Part shown: one piece after another, positions 14,338 to 15,678 of the stretch
Layout of the letters: each line of letters begins with the position of its first letter
Numbering within the stretch: position 1 is the stretch's first letter
From: Nitrospirota bacterium
GTDB taxonomy: Bacteria; Nitrospirota; Thermodesulfovibrionia; Thermodesulfovibrionales; SM23-35
Length of the DNA stretch: 34,866 nt
Direction: 5' to 3'
Assembly (NCBI GenBank): GCA_014859105.1
Contig: JACUUX010000026.1
Span: 1 to 34,866, forward strand
The notes under the pieces: model-generated
What the model was told of the DNA's origin: nothing
Databases searched by the model: none
The model's input: the letters and a program-made list of their open reading frames with translations, nothing else
Translations under genes and position numbers: made by a program

Positions 14338-14484
14338 TTATATTTCTTCTTCCGGGCAATCTTCTATTATACAGTCCTGACAATCTTTTTCTTTTTTAGG
14401 GCATTTGTCAAGCTTTTCGTTTTTTCTGTATTTTTCTTTTTCATTTTCTTCTTTTGAAACTATTTTTTTGCTTTCTATATTCAC
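14338..14484 (-). CDS. Small Cys-containing charged protein, unrecognised
   Basis: A 48-residue minus-strand frame starts at GTG 14484 with GGGAGG six bases upstream, a near-ideal ribosome binding site. The first 30 residues are almost all Lys, Glu, Asn and Ser (MNIESKKIVSKEENEKEK), and the C terminus holds four cysteines in a CPKKEKDCQDCIIEDCPEEE arrangement, which could bind a metal. No signal peptide or membrane segment is present. It lies downstream of the candidate structured RNA at about 14650-14761 on the same strand, so that RNA could be its attenuator or an independent transcript. I do not recognise the family; the ribosome binding site and Cys spacing are the reasons to call it. Confidence 0.55.
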   Translation of the reverse strand: MNIESKKIVSKEENEKEKYRKNEKLDKCPKKEKDCQDCIIEDCPEEEI

Positions 14485-14563: not shown

Positions 14564-14584
14564 ACCCTGAATTTATTTCAGGGT
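14564..14584. repeat. Hairpin repeat ACCCTGAA-TTTAT-TTCAGGGT
   Basis: An 8-bp perfect stem with a TTTAT loop, flanked by TGTC on the left. Its layout, TGTCA then a 7- to 8-bp stem with a 5-base loop, parallels the arms of the two longer repeats at 20972-21037 and 27657-27757. It could be a single-arm relative of that family. It lies between the candidate RNA and the Cys-rich small ORF. Confidence 0.6.
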
Positions 14585-14649: not shown

Positions 14650-14761
14650 GAAAAATAAAAGTCGAACTCTCTAAGGTTGATAATCACCTTATAACAGTTC
14701 GACCTTAAAATCCGCAAAACCCGCAAAATTCAGTTAAGAAAAAATTTGCAGGATCTTATTT
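14650..14761 (-). ncRNA. Candidate structured RNA with own promoter and intrinsic terminator
   Basis: On the minus strand a promoter at 14796-14768 predicts a start near 14761. About seven bases later a long hairpin can form between ATCCTGCAAA (14754-14745) and TTTTGCGGAT (14719-14710), with one bulged T; a second copy, TTTTGCGGG (14728-14720), offers a competing partner. Next comes a two-part hairpin, GTCGAACT/AGTTCGAC (14703-14696 with 14668-14661) enclosing AAGGT/ACCTT, followed directly by TTTTATTTTT (14660-14651), an intrinsic terminator. The result would be an RNA of about 110 nt. It may be a free-standing small RNA or a leader that attenuates the small ORF at 14484. I recognise no known riboswitch class. 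Confidence 0.55.
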
Positions 14762-14767
14762 TTGATT

Positions 14768-14796
14768 AACGTAACAGAACATTCTACATCTGTCAA
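14768..14796 (-). promoter_or_regulatory. Promoter of the candidate structured RNA
   Basis: On the minus strand a perfect -35 TTGACA (14796-14791) and a weaker -10 TACGTT (14773-14768) are separated by 17 bases. The -10 keeps the TA and final T of the consensus. A consensus -35 with poor -10 is often seen at regulated or activator-assisted promoters. Confidence 0.5.
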
Positions 14797-15028
14797 GCAT
14801 AAAAACCGATATAAAAACGAAATAGATAATAAAAAATAAACATATTTTCACTTAATCAGATTTTAATCTATATAATTTTGGTTAATCTGTCTGTTCTCAG
14901 CATCCCGGGTACGAACTTATTCAGGAGAAAGAATCCTTGTCTCGATAATCATAATTTTTGTTTTAACTTATTTAGATTTCAGGTGATAACTCCTCTTTGA
15001 AAATTTTTAAAAGTCCGGAAGGACTAAT

Positions 15029-15044
15029 GTGATGTAAATCACAA
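15029..15044. promoter_or_regulatory. CRP/FNR-family operator
   Basis: TGTGATGTAAATCACA is a perfect TGTGA-N6-TCACA palindrome, the CRP consensus; the inner TGAT-N4-ATCA also matches the FNR core apart from the outer base. It is centred at 15036.5, so a start near 15078 would put it at -41.5, the class II position, with AT-rich TTAATT or TATATA as -10. It is flanked by a perfect 12-bp inverted repeat, TTTTAAAAGTCC (15005-15016) and GGACTTTTAAAA (15078-15089), plus a local AGTCC/GGACT hairpin at 15012-15025. The likely target is the small membrane protein gene at 15100. Confidence 0.65.
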
Positions 15045-15099
15045 AAAAATTTGAAGAAATCTTACTTAATTATATAAGGACTTTTAAAAGAGGGTAGTG

Positions 15100-15321
15100 A
15101 TGGAAAATATGATTAGTTTATTTCAAGATCACCTTTTTGCAGGCATTGCCATTATCATATTACTACTTCTTTCATTCTATAGAAAACCGAAACTTTTTTT
15201 AGCGGTCTTCTTGCTTGTGGTGATTCTCAGCAGCACACTTTACCTGATTTTAAATATCTCTTCCATAGGTGCAACTTATAAAAAAGAACTTGTTCAGAAA
15301 TCTATAACAGATTCATTCTGA
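15100..15321 (+). CDS. Small two-helix membrane protein, unrecognised
   Basis: The 73-residue product begins MENMISLFQDHLF and has two hydrophobic segments, about residues 13-28 (FAGIAIIILLLLSFY) and 33-53, joined by a short basic turn RKPK that should face the cytoplasm. It ends in a 20-residue polar tail. ATG 15100 has AGAGGG five bases upstream; the GTG just before it is too close. The upstream CRP-type site suggests control by carbon or redox state. Its stop abuts the stop of the convergent PilZ gene with no base between. I do not recognise the family. Confidence 0.6.
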   Translation: MENMISLFQDHLFAGIAIIILLLLSFYRKPKLFLAVFLLVVILSSTLYLILNISSIGATYKKELVQKSITDSF

Positions 15322-15678
15322 TCATTTTCGTTCAAGCAACGACCTGACGAAATGCAGATAATTGATATCTTTCTCAATAATCTCCACCCCCATTCCATTG
15401 TGTACATATTTTTGCGTACCTGTTTGCTTCTCAAAAAGAGTTTCTACATCCCTTACGACTTTCCCTTTTAATTGAGAAATCGAGCCATCCGGGAGATGAA
15501 TCAGAATGTCAATTATCTTACCCGGAGGGAGAAGATGGATTGTTCTAATAAAAAAACCATTCAAAGAGAAATTGTCGGATAATCCTCTATAAGTTGTATT
15601 ATACGCTGTAAACTCTGTCTCGCAACGCTCTGTATATCTTTTCAAACGTCTCTTTTCCTTAGACTTTTCCTTTTTCAT
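15322..15678 (-). CDS. PilZ-domain protein (c-di-GMP receptor)
   Basis: PilZ domains bind cyclic di-GMP and control motility, exopolysaccharide or gene expression through partners. The 118-residue product is little more than one PilZ domain with a lysine-rich N terminus. The RxxxR motif is RRLKR (Arg10, Arg14), and the second motif is NFSLNG (Asn36, Ser38, Gly41), both intact, so binding is expected. I place the start at ATG 15678, which has AGGTGA eight bases upstream; the longer version from 15696 lacks a ribosome binding site. It has its own promoter with an overlapping palindrome at 15725-15760. No partner gene is adjacent. Confidence 0.85.
   Translation of the reverse strand: MKKEKSKEKRRLKRYTERCETEFTAYNTTYRGLSDNFSLNGFFIRTIHLLPPGKIIDILIHLPDGSISQLKGKVVRDVETLFEKQTGTQKYVHNGMGVEIIEKDINYLHFVRSLLERK

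Follow-up and report, generated by a model that had tools for sequence, protein, structure and literature searches.

A probable attenuator-type leader in a Nitrospirota contig, with a terminator stem shared by FKBP gene leaders of the same family

The minus-strand site at 14650-14800 of the DNA analysed here (the window, a stretch of 34,866 nucleotides forming contig C106 in an assembly of 3.16 Mb) is probably an attenuator-type 5' leader of a transcription unit, and a small RNA derived from this leader may be released as well. Its terminator stem, GTCRAACT...AGTTYGAC followed by a U-run, was found at four other loci of the same Nitrospirota family, each time in the 5' leader of a gene for an FKBP-type prolyl isomerase, and one of these loci (on contig C117) belongs to the same genome as the window. 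Judged from sequence, the element is a new, narrowly distributed leader within the known kind of leader terminators, and a limited search of the open-access literature found no earlier description of such an FKBP leader.

The genes and sequence elements around the site are collected in Table 1. The CinA protein encoded in the window had its nearest relatives, among those found, in Nitrospirota MAGs. Just upstream of cinA stands a strong promoter-like site, TTTACA-16-TATAAT (14255-14228, minus strand), so that cinA could be independent of the leader; when synteny of the region upstream of cinA was compared in relatives, nothing homologous was found at that position. On the other side of the leader, orthologs of the 74-aa membrane-protein gene adjoin PilZ-like genes in two related genomes (G008 and G017), and a perfect CRP/FNR-like palindrome, TGTGATGTAAATCACA, lies at 15029-15044 (plus strand), ∼55 nt upstream of this gene.

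Table 1. Positions of genes and sequence elements in the window around the candidate RNA.
Feature	Position	Strand	Remarks
PilZ gene	15696-15322	-	0.6 kb upstream of candidate RNA
74-aa membrane-protein gene	15097-15321	+	Opposite direction to candidate RNA
Promoter TTGACA-N14-TGT-TACGTT, extended -10	14768-14796	-	From sequence; pattern shared with five other leaders, rare in background
5' hairpin CCTGCAAA (14752-14745) / TTTGCGGG (14727-14720)	14720-14752	-	Pair probability 0.74-0.97
Second TTTTGCGG, alternative partner of 5' arm	14712-14719	-	Pair probability ∼0.03; no overlap with terminator
Terminator hairpin AAGGTCGAACT...AGTTCGACTTT, conserved stem GTCRAACT/AGTTYGAC	14658-14706	-	From fold, model searches and covariation
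U-run TTTTATTTTT	14651-14660	-	From sequence; relatives have TTTTGTTTTTT, TCTTTGTTTTTT, TTTTTGTTTTTT
Possible remnant of FKBP RBS and first codons	14595-14627	-	33-nt alignment, about two thirds identical to FKBP start of C117
Dispersed palindrome ACCCTGAATTTATTTCAGGGT, REP-like	14564-14584		Between leader and 48-aa ORF
48-aa ORF, GTG start, SD GGGAGG at 14496-14491	14338-14484	-	Downstream of candidate RNA
cinA, C-terminal type	14192-13710	-	After 48-aa ORF, before ligA

A preliminary description of this DNA had placed a structured RNA candidate of roughly 110 nt, lying between a promoter and a terminator of its own, in the interval given above, and the interval, the -35 hexamer with its 17-base spacing, and the two-part hairpin running into a U-run all proved correct. 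The -35 TTGACA (14796-14791, minus strand) is followed after exactly 17 nt by TACGTT (14773-14768, minus strand), which by itself is a poor -10 element (3/6) and was missed by a generic promoter scan; it is part of an extended form, TGT-TACGTT. The general pattern TTGACA-N14-TGN-TANNNT occurred four times on both strands of the 155.7 kb of DNA that served as the background for its rarity, three of the four being leaders of the kind described here, and a reversed-pattern control occurred nowhere in the same DNA. The predicted start (near 14761) and 3' end (near 14651) on the minus strand give an RNA of ∼110 nt. The segment 14655-14755 of this strand folded with -33.1 kcal/mol, compared with -17.1 ± 2.9 kcal/mol for shuffled sequences (z = -5.59; none of 200 as good), and most of this strength came from the terminator hairpin, whose stable stem and U-run are those of an intrinsic terminator. 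Rfam covariance models detected no family at the gathering threshold in the candidate RNA, and permissive thresholds gave nothing relevant (the top sub-threshold match, E 0.4, was to an irrelevant lncRNA), in agreement with the earlier statement that no known riboswitch class fits.

The stem recurs in relatives of the window. A search with the pattern GTCGAACT-N-AGTTCGAC found it in 2 of 101 genomes, at three loci, namely the window, C117, and a locus of genome G018, where the hairpin stands directly before the FKBP gene. Inspection of FKBP leaders yielded an altered stem, GTCAAACT...AGTTTGAC, in G017, and a covariance model search of the family (20 genomes) returned five loci at E ≤ 1e-8, the fifth being the FKBP leader of G012. 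Extending the search to the order, with 176 genomes, added no strong locus. The next-ranked matches had E 0.003-0.005, and one of them is a looser copy in G017 (contig C67), which has the same promoter and the stem GTCGAACA/TGTTCGAC ahead of a gene labelled SH3-domain from its sequence, with no profile search behind the label. Of the other weak matches inspected, which we rejected, several resemble terminators of the GEMM or another type, one is inside a coding gene, and one is an ordinary 3' terminator. The closest FKBP gene of G008, which is of the same genus as G017, has no hairpin, and the strict stem pattern had no match in viral contigs. When the 161-bp region was searched at the nucleotide level against its own genome and 100 relatives, only the region itself and short chance matches were returned; an 84% match in G016 was rejected because it lies inside a coding gene.

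The arrangement around the stem recurs as well. The extended promoter pattern precedes the stem at all six loci, 11-64 nt before it and with no gene between promoter and terminator; the distance from the -10 element to the stem is 57-64 nt at four loci, 25 nt in the SH3 leader, and 11 nt at C117, where the 5' part with the first hairpin is missing and a single hairpin is present. The spacing of the stem arms also varies (15, 19, 23, or 27 nt). An ORF with a Shine-Dalgarno sequence stands just downstream at the four other loci, where it is the FKBP gene, while the copy in the window has only the 48-aa ORF there, ∼170 nt on. In G018 and G012, the FKBP Shine-Dalgarno sequence directly follows the U-run, so that expression of these genes needs read-through of the terminator. 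At C117, the interval examined contains no same-strand gene between a divergent lexA-like gene and the promoter, and the hairpin is therefore a leader terminator rather than one that closes a gene further upstream.

The preliminary description had named the lack of stem conservation in related genomes as evidence against its candidate, and had called for covariation in both stems. The terminator stem is conserved in related genomes, with compensatory changes of its pairs, whereas the sequence of the 5' hairpin is not conserved. On the alignment of five sequences, 96.4% of the stem cells are paired, compared with 23.6-52.7% when the stem is slid along the alignment; two pairs change on both sides, including G-C to A-U at pair 7, and the SH3 leader adds U-A to A-U at pair 11. 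The covariation score was, however, reached in 45 of 500 shuffles; the alignment has five sequences, among them a pair of the same genus and a pair of the same genome, and the support that covariation lends to the stem is modest.

The 48-aa ORF links the window to C117. Its predicted protein has a charged N-terminus and four Cys, spaced C-x6-C-x2-C-x4-C in the window copy, and searches of 60 related genomes and of plasmids detected no relative outside its own genome. Within that genome it has one paralog, at C117 (L058 1492-1638, minus strand), with 54% identity, and the DNA of the two loci aligned with E 1.7e-17. The order at C117 is a hairpin leader with U-run, the FKBP gene, and the 48-aa paralog, so that the small gene is downstream of the hairpin at both loci. 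The window has the hairpin and the 48-aa gene in common with C117 but no FKBP gene, and a tblastn search of the window for FKBP fragments gave matches at chance level only. Since the leader and FKBP gene of C117 are accompanied by the paralog, the site in the window has the appearance of a second, paralogous leader-FKBP-48aa unit from which the FKBP gene is missing; the simplest history would be duplication of the unit followed by loss of FKBP through deletion. The alignment of the possible FKBP remnant in Table 1 is weak, as 42 of 1000 shuffles were as good. Counting the query itself, a search of the own genome returned 22 matches to the palindrome ACCCTGAATTTATTTCAGGGT at E ≤ 1, and two of them are exact over 26 nt.

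Several other readings of the site were weighed. The first hairpin does have the two alternative partners for CCTGCAAA claimed for it, and these had raised the idea that a riboswitch, or a switch between alternative pairings, governs the 48-aa ORF. In the partition function computed for the predicted RNA, the first pairing is strongly favored (Table 1) and the terminator has a probability of ∼1.0; a structure forced into the alternative pairing is 1.1 kcal/mol less stable and keeps the terminator intact, and neither pairing overlaps the terminator. The ensemble calculation thus yielded no mutually exclusive antiterminator for the window RNA, nor an alternative stem that excludes the terminator. 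As the choice between the two pairings has no bearing on termination, such a switch is unlikely, and with no matching Rfam class, the repeat TTTTGCGG absent from the leaders of relatives, and no conserved core among them, we regard the switch reading in general as extremely improbable. The 5' hairpin is weak by itself (z = -1.7; 9 of 200 shuffles as good), and although long leaders among the relatives also contain a 5' hairpin, again weak alone, its sequence is unrelated between genera.

A free-standing, trans-acting sRNA of ∼110 nt, with FKBP genes in relatives merely downstream or sharing its promoter, is unlikely. The promoter-to-terminator unit claimed for such an RNA is complete in the window, it folds strongly, no ORF follows immediately, and the 48-aa ORF begins well past the U-run. 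However, only the stem and U-run of the terminator are conserved; the unpaired or 5' portion in which a seed would lie is unrelated across genera and nearly absent from C117, and the position of the FKBP Shine-Dalgarno sequence in G018 and G012 leaves no space for a second promoter. A conserved trans-acting seed is unlikely, because no unpaired segment is conserved. Both descriptions could hold at once, but leader terminator is a better one than free-standing sRNA gene because in relatives the element forms the 5' leader of four FKBP genes and one SH3 gene. The hairpin might otherwise be the ordinary terminator of an upstream minus-strand gene, either the PilZ gene ending at 15322 or a transcript reading through; such a gene does lie 0.6 kb upstream and intrinsic terminators are common, but a promoter just before the hairpin at six of six loci, the lack of a same-strand upstream gene in the interval examined at C117, and conservation of the stem sequence at unlinked loci make this very unlikely. 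The arms GTCRAACT/AGTTYGAC, being conserved in sequence near promoters of chaperone-type genes, could also form a CIRCE-like palindrome in the DNA, an operator to which a regulator of FKBP genes would bind, instead of an RNA element. This, too, we judge to be highly improbable, given the variable spacing of the arms, as expected of an RNA stem, the U-run on the gene side in every case, and compensatory changes that maintain pairing.

According to the preferred explanation, an attenuator-type leader, RNA polymerase would start at the strong extended -10 promoter, make the ∼110-nt RNA, and meet the intrinsic terminator at 14706-14651, where most transcripts would end, while a fraction may continue into the Cys-rich ORF of 48 aa and possibly as far as cinA. 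The module would originally have belonged to an FKBP-type prolyl isomerase gene, and the leader presumably controls the output of the downstream gene by regulating read-through. The label attenuator rests on position, because the analysis turned up neither a conserved antiterminator nor a leader peptide or ligand core. The site offers a concrete, testable case of leader termination ahead of FKBP folding genes in a poorly studied phylum, the Nitrospirota, and one in which the leader apparently persisted after the gene under its control was gone. That the arm sequence, and not just any hairpin, is conserved raises the question of what reads it. A bolder and distinctly unlikely version is a lineage-specific riboregulator family, in which the terminator stem of FKBP leaders would be read sequence-specifically by a factor setting read-through of folding genes, and in the window would have been freed from FKBP as an independent sRNA or as the control of the four-Cys small protein.

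Other leaders in these genomes provide points of comparison. Terminators of c-di-GMP-I (GEMM) riboswitches, with stems of the GCCGAGCT/AGTTCGGC type and U-runs, appeared among the weak model matches, and Rfam detected no GEMM match in the FKBP leaders or the window; GEMM-like sequences before exported proteins were recognised by eye in related Nitrospirota (L128 and L141, ∼1400-1560). In G275, a layout resembling the FKBP leaders, with an unrelated stem, was seen ahead of a FAD-linked oxidase-like gene: a TTGACA promoter-like site, a leader, a GC-rich hairpin, and TTTGTTTTTTTT (L127, ∼1380-1560, oriented to the match). FKBP-type prolyl isomerases (PF00254) follow the leader at the four other loci and are absent from the window. 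ANTAR sites require hexanucleotide loops in which an A and a G are fixed. The ANTAR/EutV antitermination leaders (PMC3369931) likewise have two successive hairpins of which the second is the terminator, but the loops here are of other sizes and C117 has only one hairpin, and this class was rejected. Premature termination in 5' UTRs is well documented, for example by 3'-end mapping in E. coli (PMC7815308). Compared with the known attenuators, the FKBP leaders have no known trigger, antiterminator, or leader peptide, and the element is peculiar to the FKBP leaders of a single Nitrospirota family, with no FKBP gene at the window copy; what they share with leader intrinsic terminators and attenuators (PMC7815308) is a promoter, a short leader, and a hairpin with U-run, followed by a Shine-Dalgarno sequence and an ORF.
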